Of a stretch of 64,000 bases of DNA, positions 2,186-55,048 are shown one piece after another. Each line of letters begins with the position of its first letter. Positions within the stretch are counted from its first letter, which is position 1. A program made the position numbers and the translations under genes. This DNA is from Salisediminibacterium halotolerans (lineage in GTDB: Bacteria > Bacillota > Bacilli > Bacillales > Salisediminibacteriaceae), in the NCBI RefSeq assembly GCF_003814815.1, contig NZ_RKQQ01000006.1, positions 186,001 to 250,000 on the forward strand, read 5' to 3'. Below the pieces are notes generated by a model. The model was not told the origin of the DNA. It ran no database searches and saw only the letters and a program-made list of their open reading frames with translations.

Positions 2186-3850
2186 ATGGTAAAACCATTT
2201 TCAGCGCTGCAGCGCAAAACACATTTAGCCGAAATGGCTGAAGAAGAACTAGACATGCTCGTGATCGGCGGCGGCATCACCGGGGCGGGAATTGCTCTCG
2301 ATGCTACTGACCGGGGTTTAAATGTCGGACTGGTGGAAATGCAAGATTTTGCAGCCGGGACGTCAAGCCGTTCAACGAAACTCGTGCACGGCGGGCTCCG
2401 CTATTTAAAGCAATTGGATTTCAAAATCGTCGCCGAAACCGGGAAAGAACGGGCGATCGTGTATGAGAACGCTCCGCACGTGACAACACCGGAATGGATG
2501 ATGCTTCCGATCGTCAAAGGCGGAACGTACGGCAAGGCGGCAACTTCTGTAGGTTTGAAGGTATATGACACCCTTGCCGGGGTGCGCCGTAAGGAACGGC
2601 GGAAAATGCTCAGCCTCAATGAGACATTGGAGCGGGAACCGTTATTGCGCCGCGATAAATTAAAAGGCGGCGGCGTGTATGTTGAATACAAGACTGATGA
2701 CGCGAGGCTGACGCTTGAGACAGTGAAAGAAGCTGTCTACCGCGGCACAAAGGCCGTCAATTACACGAAAGCGGAGACATTGCTGTATCGAAACGGCAAG
2801 GTGATCGGCGCCCGTGTAAAAGATGTTGAAAGCGGTCAAACGTATGACATCTACGCAAAACGTGTCGTGAATGCAGCCGGTCCTTGGGTCGATGAGCTGC
2901 GTGAACAGGACGGATCCAAAACAGGCAAGTATTTGTATTTAACGAAGGGTGTTCATGTCGTATTTGATCAATCGCGCTTCCCGCTGAAACAAGCCGTCTA
3001 CTTTGATACGGAGAACGACGGCCGGATGATTTTTGCGATCCCGCGCGGAAACAAGACGTATGTCGGCACGACCGATACGTACTATAAAGATGACATTACC
3101 ACGCCGCGAATGACCGAAGAAGATTTAAAATATTTAGTCGATGCGTCAAACTATATGTTTCCGGGGATGGACTTAACCCGCGATGACGTTGAATCAAGCT
3201 GGACCGGCTTGCGGCCGCTGATTTTTGAAGAGGGGAAAAGCGCCTCGGAAATTTCCCGCAAAGACGAAACGTTTGAATCAGAGTCCGGACTTCTCTCGAT
3301 TGCCGGCGGCAAGCTGACAGGCTACCGGAAAATGGCGGAACGGATCGTCGATATTGTTGCCAAAGAACAAGGTGTGAAGAAAAAATGCTCAACGGCGAAA
3401 ATTGTCCTTTCCGGCGGAGATGTCGGCGGCTCGGAAAATTTAGACACGTTTATTAAGGAGCAAACTGCCGAAGGAAAACGCCGCGGGCTGACAGAAGACG
3501 AAGCGCGTCACTTGTCATCGCTTTTCGGTTCAAACGTTTCGCGGATTTATGAATTAATCGACACACTCGGCGAGGAAGGCGAACATTACGGCTTGCCGAA
3601 AAGCGTGTTTGCGCCGCTCGTTTACAGCATCGAAGAAGAGATGGCGGTTTCGCCGATCGACTTTTTCAATCGCCGCACAGGTGCCTTGTTCTTTGATATC
3701 GATTATGTGGAAAAATGGAAAGAGGCGGTGACGTCTTACATGGCGACCCGTTTTAATTGGTCAGCTGAACAAAGAGAAGCTCACGTGAACGAGCTGGAAA
3801 CTGAACTTTATTTTGCCAAGTATCCGGTAGAAACACGGGAAGCAAATTAA
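2186..3850 (+). CDS. glpD: Aerobic glycerol-3-phosphate dehydrogenase
   Basis: FAD-dependent, membrane-associated enzyme that oxidises glycerol 3-phosphate to dihydroxyacetone phosphate and feeds electrons to quinone. The FAD-binding glycine motif GGGITGAGIALDA lies near residue 25, followed by GTSSRSTKLVHGGLRYL, which is typical of GlpD. The ATG at 2186 is chosen because GAGGAGG lies 9 bases upstream and because translation from an earlier in-frame ATG (2084) would run through the leader terminator. This gives 554 residues, close to known GlpD proteins. It completes the glpF-glpK-glpD set. Confidence 0.96.
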   Translation: MVKPFSALQRKTHLAEMAEEELDMLVIGGGITGAGIALDATDRGLNVGLVEMQDFAAGTSSRSTKLVHGGLRYLKQLDFKIVAETGKERAIVYENAPHVTTPEWMMLPIVKGGTYGKAATSVGLKVYDTLAGVRRKERRKMLSLNETLEREPLLRRDKLKGGGVYVEYKTDDARLTLETVKEAVYRGTKAVNYTKAETLLYRNGKVIGARVKDVESGQTYDIYAKRVVNAAGPWVDELREQDGSKTGKYLYLTKGVHVVFDQSRFPLKQAVYFDTENDGRMIFAIPRGNKTYVGTTDTYYKDDITTPRMTEEDLKYLVDASNYMFPGMDLTRDDVESSWTGLRPLIFEEGKSASEISRKDETFESESGLLSIAGGKLTGYRKMAERIVDIVAKEQGVKKKCSTAKIVLSGGDVGGSENLDTFIKEQTAEGKRRGLTEDEARHLSSLFGSNVSRIYELIDTLGEEGEHYGLPKSVFAPLVYSIEEEMAVSPIDFFNRRTGALFFDIDYVEKWKEAVTSYMATRFNWSAEQREAHVNELETELYFAKYPVETREAN

Positions 3851-10126: not shown

Positions 10127-10150
10127 AGAAGAGCGCTAAAACGCTCTTCT
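10125..10150. terminator. Hairpin after the P-II gene, left flank of repeat copy A
   Basis: GAAGAGCG (10128-10135) pairs with CGCTCTTC (10142-10149). No T-run follows on the plus strand. The arms match those of the hairpin on the far side of repeat copy A (10399-10424), although the loops differ. Confidence 0.6.
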
Positions 10151-10398
10151 CAGACTGTCGCCGCAGGATTAAGCCGGGATGCTGTGGCATCCTCTCTGTT
10201 TCAAATAGTGCGTTGTCAATATTGTTCTGCAACGTAAGAAAGCCGCGCAGCCGCTCCTCCGACACCTCCGGGAAAGCAAGAGACGAAGATCCGGATTCGG
10301 CGGTCCGAGACCGCCGAAGGCTAGCTGAGTCCTTGCCCCGGGCAAGCGGAGGTTAGCGGCTGCGCGGCTTGCGTCAAAATACGAGTTTGTCTGCAGTC
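10151..10398 (+). repeat. Terminator-associated repeat, copy A (5'-truncated)
   Basis: Fills most of the 307-base gap between the P-II gene and leuD. It lacks the 5' module but has the core (CCGCAGGATTAAGCCGGGAT) and the whole 3' hairpin module. The outer stem AGCCGCGCAGCCGCT (10241-10255) pairs perfectly with AGCGGCTGCGCGGCT (10355-10369). The right end TTTGTCTGCA is a variant of the terminal repeat TTTGTCTACAA. It is homologous to the copies near 22.7, 30.0, 37.8, 52.6 and 54.6 kb. Confidence 0.85.
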
Positions 10399-10429
10399 AA
10401 AGAAGAGCGCCGCGGCGCTCTTCTTTTTT
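10399..10429. terminator. Terminator hairpin between repeat copy A and leuD
   Basis: AAGAAGAGCGCC pairs with GGCGCTCTTCTT, followed by TTTTTT on the plus strand. On the minus strand it lies 5 bases after the leuD stop, so it can also end the ilv-leu transcript. Confidence 0.8.
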
Positions 10430-22689: not shown

Positions 22690-22927
22690 AAAGCCTTCTT
22701 CGTGTCTTACTAGTCCGCGGGCGAGCGCCGATCCGCTTCGGGCTTGCCCTGCAGGGTCTCGTCTGTCTCGCTATTCCGCAGGAAAAAGCCGGGATGCTGG
22801 GTCATTCTCCTTCTTTGAATCGAGGTATTCATAATAAAGAAAGCCACGCATCCACTCCTCCGACGCCTCAGGGCAAGCGGAGGGTAGTGGCTGCGCGGCT
22901 TACGTCAAAATAATAATTTGTCTACAA
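22690..22927 (+). repeat. Terminator-associated repeat, copy B (partial)
   Basis: Occupies the 295-base gap between the aldo/keto reductase and the 3D-domain gene. It has the core module (GTCCGCGGGCGAGCGCCG onward), a shortened 3' hairpin lacking the inner GGATTCGGCGG stem, and a perfect right terminal repeat TTTGTCTACAA (22917-22927). The 5' module is missing. Confidence 0.85.
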
Positions 22928-22930
22928 TCT

Positions 22931-22963
22931 GAAAGCCTTGAACCACTAAGGTTCAAGGCTTTA
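22931..22963 (-). terminator. Terminator after the 3D-domain gene
   Basis: AAAGCCTTGAACC pairs with GGTTCAAGGCTTT. The T-run on the minus strand is short. It abuts the right end of repeat copy B. Confidence 0.65.
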
Positions 22964-22977
22964 TTTCACTGTTAAGT

Positions 22978-24294
22978 TTATGGTGTGTCGATAACGGTTA
23001 CTTCAACTTGCTGACGTCCGAAGTTGACAGCTTCAGCATTTGATGCCATGTGCAAGTCAATACGCTCGCCTTGGATCGCTCCGCCGATGTCGCCAGCTAC
23101 AGCTTGGCCGTAACCTTCAACATGAACCGTCGAGCCGAGAGGGATGACGTCCGGGTCAACCGCAACAACGTTTTTGTTAGGGTTAGCATTTAGGTCGATG
23201 CCCGTGTACGTTACACCTGTGCAGCCTTCGCAATCTGCTGTGTATGCAGTTGCTTCAAGGGACATTGTTTGACCATCAGCATCGGAAGATGTCGACGTTG
23301 CTGTTTCTTCTTGCGCAGCTTGCTCTTCAGCAGCTTGTTGTTCTTCTTGCGCAGCTTGTTCTTCAGCAGCTTGTTGTTCTTCTTGCGCAGCTTGCTCTTC
23401 AGCAGCTTGTTGTTCTTCTTGCGCAGCTTGCTCTTCAGCAGCTTGTTGTTCTTCTTGCGCAGCCTGCTCTTCAGCAGCTTGTTGTTCTTCTTGCGCAGCC
23501 TGCTCTTCAGCAGCTTGTTGTTCTTCTTGCGCGGCTTCTTCTTCAGCAGCTTGTTGTTCTTCTTGCGCGGCTTCTTCTTCAGCAGCTTGTTGTTCTTCTT
23601 GCGCAGCCTGCTCTTCAGCAGCTTGTTGTTCTTCTTGTGCAGCCTGCTCTTCAGCAGCTTGTTGTTCTTCTTGAGCAGCCTGCTCTTCAGCAGCTTGTTG
23701 TTCTTCTTGCGCAGCTTCTTCTTCAGCAGCTTGTTGTTCTTCTTGAGCAGGTTCTTCTTCGACTGTTCCTTCAGTTACTTGATGAAGAGCTGAGTAAGTT
23801 TTCGGTCCAGCTACTCCGCTTTTTTCATCAACGTCGTAATCGTTTTGCAGCTCAACAACCGCTTCTTCAGTCAAAGGACCGAAAATTCCGTCAAGGCCTG
23901 CTTGATAGTAGCCGGCTGCTTGCAGATCTTCTTGCAGGGCTTCAACGACTTGACCTTGGTCGCCGTTTTCTAATCCCATTAATGCACCGATCGTTTGCGG
24001 ACCGGCTAAACCGTCAACGAGGAGATCGTAGTTTTGCTGAAACTCCTTAACGGCTTGAGCGGTTTGGTTACTGTATTGACTGGACGGGTTGTCTACACTG
24101 TAAAATTTCGTCTCATCGAGAAGCTCTTTGAAGTTTTCTACATCTTGGCTGCTTTTTCCTTCGTATAGTAGCTCGTCCCCGAGGCTGCCGTCGTTCTCAG
24201 CAGCAGATACCGCTGATCCTGTGAAGAAAACGGCTCCTGCAGCTAGTACGGATACTCCGGCACGCTGTAGTGTCGTGCGCAATTGTGTTGTCAT
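22978..24294 (-). CDS. Secreted cell-wall protein: two peptidoglycan-binding domains, Gln/Glu/Ala repeats and a 3D domain
   Basis: 438 residues. An N-terminal signal peptide (hydrophobic AGVSVLAAGAVFFTGSAVSA, cleavage after AVSA likely) leads to two PG_binding_1-like domains (about 45-105 and 110-170; QTIGALMG and LDGIFGPLTEEAV motifs). A linker of twelve 12-residue units QEEQQAAEE(E/Q)AA follows, then a C-terminal 3D domain (about 345-438) with its conserved aspartates in AVDP, AGDIGGAI and RIDLHM. 3D domains are related to the catalytic core of lytic transglycosylases; B. subtilis YocH is comparable. AAGGAGGT precedes the start. It is probably exported and wall bound, acting in wall turnover. 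Confidence 0.9.
   Translation of the reverse strand: MTTQLRTTLQRAGVSVLAAGAVFFTGSAVSAAENDGSLGDELLYEGKSSQDVENFKELLDETKFYSVDNPSSQYSNQTAQAVKEFQQNYDLLVDGLAGPQTIGALMGLENGDQGQVVEALQEDLQAAGYYQAGLDGIFGPLTEEAVVELQNDYDVDEKSGVAGPKTYSALHQVTEGTVEEEPAQEEQQAAEEEAAQEEQQAAEEQAAQEEQQAAEEQAAQEEQQAAEEQAAQEEQQAAEEEAAQEEQQAAEEEAAQEEQQAAEEQAAQEEQQAAEEQAAQEEQQAAEEQAAQEEQQAAEEQAAQEEQQAAEEQAAQEEQQAAEEQAAQEETATSTSSDADGQTMSLEATAYTADCEGCTGVTYTGIDLNANPNKNVVAVDPDVIPLGSTVHVEGYGQAVAGDIGGAIQGERIDLHMASNAEAVNFGRQQVEVTVIDTP
23308..23754 (-). repeat. Twelve tandem 36-bp coding repeats
   Basis: Twelve nearly identical 36-bp units, each encoding QEEQQAAEE(E/Q)AA, inside the 3D-domain gene. The units keep the frame, so changes in copy number would only lengthen or shorten the acidic, probably helical linker. 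Differences are mostly at the ninth-to-tenth codon (GAA or CAG) and at silent sites. Confidence 0.95.
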
Positions 24295-29967: not shown

Positions 29968-30000
29968 CAAAAAAAGAAAGCTTCCTAAGAAGAAGCTTCC
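29968..30000 (-). terminator. Terminator of the ytr-like operon
   Basis: Two AAGCTT-containing arms form a stem on the minus strand, followed by TTTCTTTTTTT. It is separated from the permease stop by repeat copy C. Confidence 0.55.
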
Positions 30001-30004
30001 AAAC

Positions 30005-30100
30005 TGTAGACAAAGGATTATATTGACGTAAGCCGCGCAGCCGCTAACCTCCGCTTGCTTTCTCGGAGGCATCGGAGGAGCGGATGCATAGCTTACTTTA
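30005..30100 (-). repeat. Terminator-associated repeat, copy C (short, inverted)
   Basis: Minus-strand orientation. Contains only the terminal repeat (TGTAGACAAAG on the plus strand) and the two outer arms of the 3' hairpin module (GTAAGCCGCGCAGCCGCTAA and CATCGGAGGAGCGGATGCAT). The inner part is deleted. It lies between the permease stop and its terminator. Confidence 0.75.
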
Positions 30101-37718: not shown

Positions 37719-37751
37719 AAAAAAACGCCTCCGCTTTAAATCGCGGAGGCG
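37719..37751 (-). terminator. Terminator hairpin, left flank of repeat copy D
   Basis: A 26-base hairpin (37726-37751; arms CGCCTCCGC and GCGGAGGCG) followed on the minus strand by TTTTTTT. It is identical over all 26 bases to the hairpin at 38123-38148 on the other side of the repeat. This copy has the T-run, so it is the original terminator of the msmX gene. Confidence 0.9.
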
Positions 37752-38122
37752 CTAGATTGTTGACAAAGTCATGACATCGATAGATGTCATAGTTAAAAGG
37801 AACGGATGACGACGCATCGTCCGGCTTCTTTCCGCGGGCGAGCGCCGAGCCGCTTCGGGCTGATGCCCTGCAGGGTCTCGTCTGTCTCGCTATCCCGCAG
37901 GATTAAGCCGGGATGCTGGGTCATCCTCATTCTTTGAATCGAGTGTATTCATCATAAAGGAAGCCACGCCTCCACGCCTCCGACGCCTCCGGGAAAGCAA
38001 GAGACGAAGATCCGGATTCGGCGGTCTCAGGCCGCCGAATACTAGCTGAGTCCTTGCCCGGGGCAAGCGGAGGGTAGTGGTTGCGTGGCTTACGTCAAAA
38101 TAATAATTTGTCTACAAACTGT
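37752..38122 (+). repeat. Terminator-associated repeat, copy D (371 bp)
   Basis: Nearly complete copy. Left end GATTGTTGACAAAG and right end AATTTGTCTACAAACT are inverted repeats with few mismatches. Modules in order: hairpin ATGACATC/GATGTCAT, hairpin GACGA/TCGTC, core CCGCGGGCGAGCG...CCCGCAGG, then the 3' hairpin with outer stem AGCCACGC (37962-37969) / GCGTGGCT (38083-38090) and inner stem TTCGGCGG/CCGCCGAA. It lacks 57 bases present in copies E and F. It fills the gap between the SDR gene and the msmX gene. Confidence 0.9.
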
Positions 38123-38148
38123 CGCCTCCGCTTTAAATCGCGGAGGCG
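38123..38148. other. Duplicated hairpin, right flank of repeat copy D
   Basis: Exact 26-base duplicate of 37726-37751, next to the repeat's right end. It has no T-run on either strand, as expected if it arose by duplication of the target hairpin on insertion. Confidence 0.9.
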
Positions 38149-52556: not shown

Positions 52557-52581
52557 ACAGTGTATGTATAAAAATAATTGC

Positions 52582-52997
52582 TTGTAGACAAAGTCATGAC
52601 ATCAATAGATGTCCTATTAAAAGGAACGGATGACTACGCATCGTCCGGCTTCTTTCACCTGAAGGTATCACTGCGACATCGGCTCAAAAAGACTTCGCCG
52701 TGTCTTACTAGTCCGCGGGCGAGCGCCGAGCCGCTTCGGGCTGATGCCCTGCAGGGTCTCGCCTTTCTCGCTATCCCGCAGGAGAAAGCCGGGATGCTGG
52801 GTCATCCTCCTTTTTTGAATGGAGTGTATTCTTAAAAAAAGAAGCCATGCATCCACTCCTCCGACGCCTCCGGGAAAGCAAGAGACGAAGATCCGGATTC
52901 GGCGGCCTCAGACCGCCGAATACTAGCTGAGTCCTTGCCCGGGGCAAGCGGAGGGTAGTGGATTCATGGCTGACATCAAAATATAGTTTGTCTACAA
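52582..52997 (+). repeat. Terminator-associated repeat, copy E (416 bp, complete)
   Basis: Full-length copy bounded by a perfect 11-base terminal inverted repeat, TTGTAGACAAA (52582-52592) and TTTGTCTACAA (52987-52997). All modules are present, with 3' outer stem AGCCATG (52843-52849) / CATGGCT (52965-52971). It fills the 456-base gap between ypmS and the DUF3267 gene; only the latter's terminator remains besides. Confidence 0.92.
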
Positions 52998-53027
52998 ACA
53001 AAAAGAGCCGTTTTACGGCTCTTTTTG
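52998..53027 (-). terminator. Terminator overlapping the DUF3267 stop codon
   Basis: CAAAAAGAGCCG (52999-53010) pairs with CGGCTCTTTTTG (53016-53027). The TAA of the DUF3267 gene (53013-53015) lies in the loop, so the last four codons form one arm. Repeat copy E abuts it directly. Confidence 0.85.
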
Positions 53028-54402: not shown

Positions 54403-54563
54403 AGTTGTCCTCCAATCGGTAAAGTATTATGTGTTCAATCTGGCAGTCGTCGGAATTTTCATTATTTTATCGGCAAAATGATAACATCATCATAACACAA
54501 TAAAACATTTGTGCTCAATAACATTTCATATTTTTCTGACAAATAATTTCACAAAATGTTCAC

Positions 54564-54594
54564 AAAAATCCGTCCTGCTAAGGGACGGATTTTA
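54564..54594 (-). terminator. Terminator hairpin, left flank of repeat copy F
   Basis: 31-base segment with stem AAATCCGTCC / GGACGGATTT, identical to 55018-55048. Both have short T-runs on the minus strand. It probably is the original serC terminator. The 160 bases between it and the scoC start hold only AT-rich promoter-like sequence. Confidence 0.88.
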
Positions 54595-55017
54595 CAGAGT
54601 GTTGACAAAGTCATGACATCGTTAGATGTCATGTTAAAAGGAACGGATGACGACGCATCGTCCGGCTTCTTTCACCTGAAGGTATCACTGCGACATCGGC
54701 TCAATAAGACTTCGCCGTGTCTTACTAGTCCGCGGGCGAGCGCCGAGCCGCTTCGGGCTGATGCCCTGCAGGGTCTCGTCTGTCTCGCTATCCCGCAGGA
54801 GAAAGCCGGGATGCTGGGTCAGCCTCTTTTTTGAAGCGAGTGTATTCATAAAAAAAGAAGCCATGCATCCACTCCTCCGACGCCTCCGGGAAAGCAAGAG
54901 ACGAAGATCCGGATTCGGCGGCCCGATACCGCCGAATCCTAGCTGAGTCCTTGCCCGGGGCAAGCGGAGGGTAGTGGATTCATGGCTGACATAAAAATAT
55001 AGTTTGTCTACAGTCTA
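54595..55017 (+). repeat. Terminator-associated repeat, copy F (423 bp, complete)
   Basis: Complete copy, close to copy E over its whole length, with ends GTGTTGACAAAG and TAGTTTGTCTACAGTC forming an imperfect inverted repeat. The 3' stem has AGCCATG/CATGGCT. It separates two identical 31-base hairpins. Short open frames inside are shared with copy E only because the DNA is shared. Confidence 0.92.
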
Positions 55018-55048
55018 AAAAATCCGTCCTGCTAAGGGACGGATTTTA
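55018..55048 (-). terminator. Terminator hairpin after serC, right flank of repeat copy F
   Basis: Exact duplicate of 54564-54594; stem followed on the minus strand by TTTTTTAG. It lies 7 bases past the serC stop. Confidence 0.88.

Follow-up and report, generated by a model that had tools for sequence, protein, structure and literature searches.

The stretch of DNA analysed here, a window of 64,000 nucleotides from Salisediminibacterium halotolerans, harbours six copies (A to F) of a dispersed repeat which we assign to MITEs of an IS1182-family insertion sequence (IS), together with hairpins adjoining their ends. In the order of their positions these features are as follows.

10127 to 10150, unstranded: left hairpin at copy A (AGAAGAGCGCTAAAACGCTCTTCT), recognised by eye
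10151 to 10400, plus strand: copy A, MITE with an internal deletion
10401 to 10424, unstranded: right hairpin at copy A (AGAAGAGCGCCGCGGCGCTCTTCT), recognised by eye, with the arms of the left hairpin and a different loop
22690 to 22931, plus strand: copy B, left-truncated MITE
22932 to 22962, unstranded: hairpin at the right end of copy B (AAAGCCTTGAACCACTAAGGTTCAAGGCTTT), recognised by eye
29975 to 30000, unstranded: hairpin at the remaining end of copy C, recognised by eye
30001 to 30100, minus strand: copy C, truncated MITE, right end only
37726 to 37751, unstranded: left hairpin copy at copy D (CGCCTCCGCTTTAAATCGCGGAGGCG)
37752 to 38122, plus strand: copy D, MITE of 371 bp without part of the 5' module
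38123 to 38148, unstranded: right hairpin copy at copy D, identical to the left one (CGCCTCCGCTTTAAATCGCGGAGGCG)
52582 to 52997, plus strand: copy E (locus L021), decayed MITE of full length with altered outer bases of the terminal repeat and no left hairpin
53000 to 53027, unstranded: terminator-like hairpin adjoining the right end of copy E (AAAAAGAGCCGTTTTACGGCTCTTTTTG), recognised by eye, none at the left end
54564 to 54594, unstranded: terminator-like stem-loop, left target-duplication copy of F (AAAAATCCGTCCTGCTAAGGGACGGATTTTA), 100% identical to the right copy
54595 to 55017, plus strand: copy F, full-length MITE (about 423 bp), left end CAGAGTGTTGACAAA, right end TTTGTCTACAGTCTA
55018 to 55048, unstranded: terminator-like stem-loop, right target-duplication copy of F

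The six homologous blocks which a preliminary description of the window had delimited (10151-10398, 22690-22927, 30005-30100 in inverted orientation, 37752-38122, 52582-52997 and 54595-55017) are all present in its sequence. The perfect 11-base terminal inverted repeat attributed there to copy E (TTGTAGACAAA / TTTGTCTACAA) is present as well, but the repeat of the family comprises about 15 bp and E, having lost its outer bases, is atypical. The claim that no open frame is kept across the copies requires a restriction, as E and F share a frame over their first approximately 75 codons (ORFs 52578-52835 and 54556-54834), yet there is no sign of a conserved gene. The ORF list of the window contains no ORF of 80 or more amino acids within copy D. 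At 23197-23880 of the window a tandem repeat with a 36-nt unit lies inside a minus-strand ORF of 438 amino acids (22978-24294) and would encode a 12-residue repeat.

The repeat family and its IS1182-family partner

The genome of S. halotolerans comprises 2.84 Mb in 11 contigs. With copy F as query, about 40 dispersed elements are retrieved from it (40 of 182 candidates scored), many of them full-length and 96-97% identical. The terminal-repeat pattern AGASTGTNGACAAA, with one mismatch allowed, produces 93 + 93 matches genome-wide versus 4 + 10 for the reversed control. The BLAST elements and the pattern places listed together give at least 40 + 61 sites, so that the high copy number which had been predicted from the window is borne out with at least about 100 sites. 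In contigs C2, C3 and C10 terminal repeats of the family are found no more than about 170 bases from a contig end, so that elements probably interrupt the assembly and the number of copies has to be considered a lower bound.

The copies do have common ends, whose absence would, according to the preliminary description, have spoken against a mobile element: the terminal repeat of about 15 bp, derived from the 152 ends of 76 clean elements, has the consensus YAGABTGTWGACAAA. Truncated forms as well as both orientations occur. Repeat-bounded elements are mainly about 260, 365 or 422 bp long, larger forms being rarer, which agrees with the loss of whole modules noticed earlier in the shortened window copies. 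With lengths of 258 to 699 bp (75 clean elements other than the IS) the MITEs are too short for a transposase gene.

An IS bounded by the terminal repeat of the family, as envisaged in the preliminary description, is found elsewhere in the genome. It is 1736 bp long (C2:366166-367901, locus L059; ends AGAGTGTCGACAAA / AGACTGTAGACAAA) and contains, between its terminal inverted repeats, a single intact transposase ORF of 480 amino acids which scores 450.8 bits against the NCBIfam IS1182 model NF033551 (cut-off 270). The only match to PF13751, the IS1182-type transposase domain, in the whole genome is located outside the window at C2:366286-366645. MITEs and IS share their terminal repeats only, while the interiors differ. 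As the likeness is limited to these repeats, mobilisation in trans is what we infer, and the single full-size IS very probably moves the MITEs. At locus L071 part of a MITE is joined to the right end of the IS (97% identity) in a chimera. By eye, both ends of the IS at L059 (about 1381-1440 and 3060-3116) appear hairpin-like, each followed by a T-run in inward direction, an arrangement reminiscent of terminators that would keep external transcription from entering the transposase gene.

Hairpins at the ends of the elements and at empty sites

We read 97 loci of the host genome in detail (L001-L030 and L059-L125), copies A, B, C and D being treated separately and three contig-end places left out. 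At 76 of the 97 a whole hairpin of 19-40 nt (median 26) is directly repeated outside both ends, its sequence being specific to the site; the duplication is alike in the IS and in the 75 other loci. The two hairpins are identical in 31 of the 76 pairs and differ somewhere in loop or stem in 45. When flanks from different sites among the 76 were paired, with the ends kept as chosen, none of 760 mismatched pairs reached the threshold. The repeats of the 31 identical pairs fold at a mean of -15.6 kcal/mol, compared to -3.2 kcal/mol for shuffles.

T accounts for 61-64% of the eight nucleotides after the right copy (61% in the host, the range covering the relatives described below) and A for 53-59% of the eight nucleotides before the left copy (53% in the host, the range again covering the relatives). 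A stem-loop with T after the right copy and A before the left copy corresponds to the anatomy of intrinsic terminators. At 28 host sites (29 tried, by ORF calling) the neighbouring genes are arranged in forward tandem (10), convergently (10), in reverse tandem (7) or divergently (1), and divergent pairs are found at 2 of 62 sites of the relatives. For left neighbours transcribed towards the element, the median distance between stop codon and left hairpin is 6 nt. The passages considered from a published survey report IS1182 to be over-represented between convergent genes (PMC9208149).

Twenty-one of the 97 host loci fall below the automatic threshold for hairpin duplication. Among these, L107 contains no element, L016 and L071 do have a duplicated hairpin, and L103 has a 17-nt direct repeat. 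One end touches a predicted hairpin, the other end or a second copy not being found, at 13 loci (L064, L066, L069, L074, L076, L077, L084, L088, L089, L096, L100, L115 and L123), while no clear duplicated hairpin is recognisable at L021 (copy E), L072, L083 and L113. In a few pairs the two hairpin copies have the same stem, but their loops are in opposite orientation; the flipped loop fits better in L102 and slightly better in L012, with a tie in L120. Loop inversion was dismissed as a sign of the mechanism, since a similar flip exists between species at one terminator (G129 versus G141; L280, L282).

Relatives of the transposase are present in 29 of 100 genomes searched, host included. A duplicated hairpin at recognisable IS ends was found at 11 of 30 loci read, again including the host IS (L126-L129, L134-L138, L140 and L143), down to a transposase identity of 31%; many others are transposase fragments or contig-end loci. 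L146 exceeds the hairpin threshold and was left uncounted, because it is part of a longer tandem duplication away from the IS ends. From a scan of public genome contigs 80 related IS loci were kept, and 79 after L207 had been dropped for its short flank. Sixty-three of these 79 copies are flanked by a duplicated hairpin of 19-42 nt, identical in 57 pairs. Mismatched pairs whose ends were searched in the same way reached the threshold in 0 of 474 cases, and the repeats of the 63 relatives fold at a mean of -14.8 kcal/mol versus -2.5 kcal/mol for shuffles. The 63 copies range over Bacillus and its relatives, Lysinibacillus, Sporosarcina, Exiguobacterium, Enterococcus avium, Saccharibacillus and, within the Clostridia, Alkalithermobacter thermoalcaliphilus; some genomes (e.g. 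Bacillus sp. OV166 and Neobacillus drentensis) contribute several copies, so that the sites are independent and the ISs are not.

The automatic test is failed by 16 of the 79 related copies, of which, by eye, L184 and L243 also have duplicated hairpins. Different hairpins are present at the two ends of L190 and L193, a hairpin at one end only is seen in 10 of the 16 (three of them at a contig end), and L173 has no hairpin. At L245 (Enterococcus avium) the IS copy is flanked by a 7-bp direct repeat, ACGAGCT, with no hairpin, which constitutes an exception to hairpin duplication. In 20 further stretches, several of which are re-read loci, 17 reveal duplicated hairpins, the exceptions being L248, L251 and L266 (clipped by a contig end). 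Three of six plasmid copies carry the hairpin duplication, namely those from Sutcliffiella horikoshii, Enterococcus faecium pELF and the Gram-negative Providencia rettgeri (38% transposase identity); ISCfr1, a copy resembling ISEfa7 and a further E. faecium copy are without it.

Matches to the MITE modules are dispersed in 24 of 60 genomes, host included. That they represent the same MITE was rejected, L042 alone of 28 loci having a duplicated hairpin at MITE-like ends; L038 also exceeds the threshold of the script, but is situated within repeat sequence rich in GC. The modules themselves are dispersed, GC-rich and also present on their own elsewhere, with related repeats standing alone in many relatives. 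A GC-rich repeat of the CTTTCCGCGGGG...CCGCAGGAGTC type is located between IS end and transposase gene in L131, L132 and L059, and inside the MITE at L042.

The borders of the repeats coincide with those of the hairpins most clearly in the relatives. There, the outer eight nested positions form a mean of 7.03 complementary pairs at the repeats' own borders, a value which falls to 2.6-4.1 if the compared segment is shifted by one to six bases (3.6-4.1 at one base, 2.6-3.6 at two). No unpaired base is present at the 5' edge in 48 of the 63 and at the 3' edge in 51 of the 63. In the host genome the peak is weak, the borders giving 4.39 of 8, shifts of +1 and +2 giving 4.22 and 4.14, and all other positions 2.6-3.4, perhaps owing to decay and to alignments running beyond the hairpin. 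As 45 of the 76 host pairs have diverged and some aligned repeats overrun the hairpin, our statement on exact borders is founded on the relatives. A duplication of fixed stagger was rejected in view of the varying repeat lengths of 19-42 nt.

For a 41%-identical IS in genome G076, we rebuilt three insertion sites in their empty form and looked for them in the 44 genomes of the genus, among them G076 itself. The empty site of L264 is unbroken in G117 (98%) and G121 (97%), among others, that of L263 in G141 (89%) and that of L262 in G121 (88%). G076 itself gives a two-piece match whose pieces overlap exactly over the hairpin, and ACGCCTGCAGCCGCAGGCGT occurs once in G117 and twice around the IS in G076. 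The target of this related IS contains one hairpin before insertion and two after it. Two of these terminators carry insertions elsewhere in the genus, the hairpin being doubled each time: a MITE of 175 bp at L279 in G117, a short element at L280 in G129 and, at L281 in G120, an insertion of IS size. The comparison of occupied and empty sites proposed in the preliminary description is thus achieved to the base for relatives, but not for the window copies: the same-genus genomes G001 and G002 contain no exact empty site for these, the syntenic gaps without element consisting of DNA too diverged for a base-level comparison. By eye, most of these gaps contain one terminator-like hairpin; at C none is apparent (G002 not shown there), and at D an extra gene is present in the gap.

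Alternative readings and proposed mechanism

Several observations support the assignment of the repeats to a MITE family of an IS1182-family IS: the elements are numerous, have terminal inverted repeats in common with each other and with an IS, and are flanked by target duplications, and for related ISs as well as for one related MITE empty sites are available. The MITE reading of the preliminary description is thereby supported, but both the terminator target and the duplication of the hairpins had escaped it, even though they are visible in the window at A, D and F. Its alternative wording, 'bcr-like', is not supported, the IS1182-family membership of the partner IS arguing against it. The bcr repeats of the Bacillus cereus group are likewise dispersed intergenic repeats of Bacillaceae, whose ends and target duplication, as generally described, differ from those of the present family.

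We consider it highly probable that MITEs of an IS1182-family IS insert at terminator-like hairpins with duplication of the whole hairpin, and that the IS moves them in trans. The elements could instead have inserted between terminators already arranged in tandem, or could themselves carry the hairpin, insertion then causing no duplication, and the 45 of 76 host pairs that differ somewhere in loop or stem would agree with this. Each site, however, has its own hairpin, mismatched pairs never reach the threshold (0/760; 0/474), and the uninterrupted sister-species sequence corresponding to L264, 98% identical in G117, has a single one; we therefore hold this explanation to be extremely improbable. 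Insertion into pre-existing tandem terminators is refuted at three sites of one related IS, where the empty sites have one hairpin. Selection would offer another route to the same distribution: staggered cuts might be made anywhere under loose control, only insertions at terminators between genes surviving, with the hairpin being no guide. Terminators presumably are dispensable intergenic space, selection against gene disruption is to be expected, and the border test in the host genome is weak (4.39/8 versus 4.22 at shift +1). Selection would, however, not place the repeat borders at the feet of each hairpin, the pairing in relatives (7.03/8) drops on sliding, and the repeats vary in length from 19 to 42 nt and yet comprise whole hairpins, which renders this route improbable.

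A structured RNA or cis-regulatory 3' element which is kept for its function and is not mobile would be in line with the location of the copies after genes and with the predicted RNA folding of copy F (-182 kcal/mol versus -138 kcal/mol for shuffles, z -8). Against it speak the terminal repeats, the duplicated targets and the occurrence of truncated copies as well as of copies in either orientation. In addition, Rfam has no match in the window at gathering threshold, the three sub-threshold matches around E and F belonging to unrelated families (E 0.11-0.79). A structured RNA family was rejected on the latter grounds, and we judge the functional-element reading as a whole very improbable; a role in 3' UTRs may have been acquired after insertion.

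According to the insertion mechanism which we favour, the IS transposase would act on the MITEs in trans and would recognise its target by the hairpin, probably as an extruded cruciform, rather than by base sequence. Joining of the element 3' ends to both 5' feet of the stem-loop would leave gaps whose repair copies the entire stem-loop. After insertion the T-tract would stay with the right hairpin and the A-tract with the left one, giving one predicted terminator per direction of transcription, and the inserted element would become a long structured 3' UTR. Terminators would hence be a nearly harmless target at which termination is predicted to persist, and such a nearly neutral result would account for the presence of about 100 copies in 2.84 Mb. 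We give an even chance to a broader proposal, in which a clade of DDE transposases, found in Bacilli, at least one species of Clostridia and on one Gram-negative plasmid, sets the duplication by DNA structure instead of a fixed stagger. Joining by these enzymes would take place at the 5' feet of a cruciform formed by the terminator, whose own transcription may drive the extrusion, and would rebuild the terminator on each side, which would amount to a built-in sparing of the host.

Relation to known elements and significance

IS1272 and TnSha1 of staphylococci resemble the present family, in the passages considered, by their IS1182-family transposase, by hairpin targets without sequence specificity, of which several are confirmed terminators, and by terminal repeats of 16 bp (PMC4923244, PMC5678879). 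Both papers credit Siguier et al. 2015 with the observation that some IS1182 members target palindromes. As far as these passages go, stem-loops hit by IS1272 are replaced and not duplicated (Wan et al. 2017, PMC5678879), and hairpin and terminator targets with blunt deletion are described by Furi et al. 2016 (PMC4923244). In contrast to IS1272, which replaces or partly deletes the hairpin with no duplication, the whole hairpin is kept twice here; hairpin deletion with lack of a target duplication is not what the family exhibits. It fits the duplication branch of the model of Wan et al. (PMC5678879), whose hypothetical pathway b, with joining at the 5' feet of the cruciform, would duplicate the whole stem-loop. 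The part considered of a 2025 paper (PMC12056078) states that IS1182-type transposases work with or without target duplication or deletion.

The ISMac2 MITEs of Methanosarcina acetivorans are likewise short non-autonomous derivatives of an IS of the IS1182 family, but are 160 and 169 bp long with direct repeats of presumably 4 and 0, and the word 'terminator' is absent from the main text of the paper (PMC3852290). ISPse1 from Paracoccus belongs to the same family and has terminal repeats of 16/16, yet its presumed direct repeat is 4 in the passages considered (PMC3281130). ISCfr1, an IS1182-family element of enterobacterial plasmids, shares 27.5% transposase identity over 66% of the query; unlike the present family, the one copy read has other ends and no duplicated hairpin. 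The BrickBuilt MITE of Porphyromonas gingivalis is similar in that the target duplications of three of four copies differ in length and that predicted Rho-independent terminators or polyadenylation sites flank 10 of 19; its text makes no mention of IS1182, and the passages considered contain no duplication of the terminator itself (PMC4596501). Among the literature titles and abstract openings listed, no IS1182 elements or MITEs duplicating terminators are reported. ISfinder entries for single ISs could already record such hairpin repeats.

As a rule, the enzyme determines how long the target duplication of a DDE transposon is, and this length does not vary. In the present elements it varies with the hairpin instead, and well over 100 sites thereby provide natural evidence for a pathway previously drawn as a hypothesis in the passages considered (PMC5678879). 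Hairpin targeting by IS1182 members is already known; the duplication of the whole hairpin is a variant new beside it. Our findings suggest a way for an element to reach about 100 copies in 2.8 Mb with little harm and predict that many genes in such genomes have a mobile element as their 3' UTR. A dispersed repeat of obscure origin thus becomes a system open to laboratory testing.
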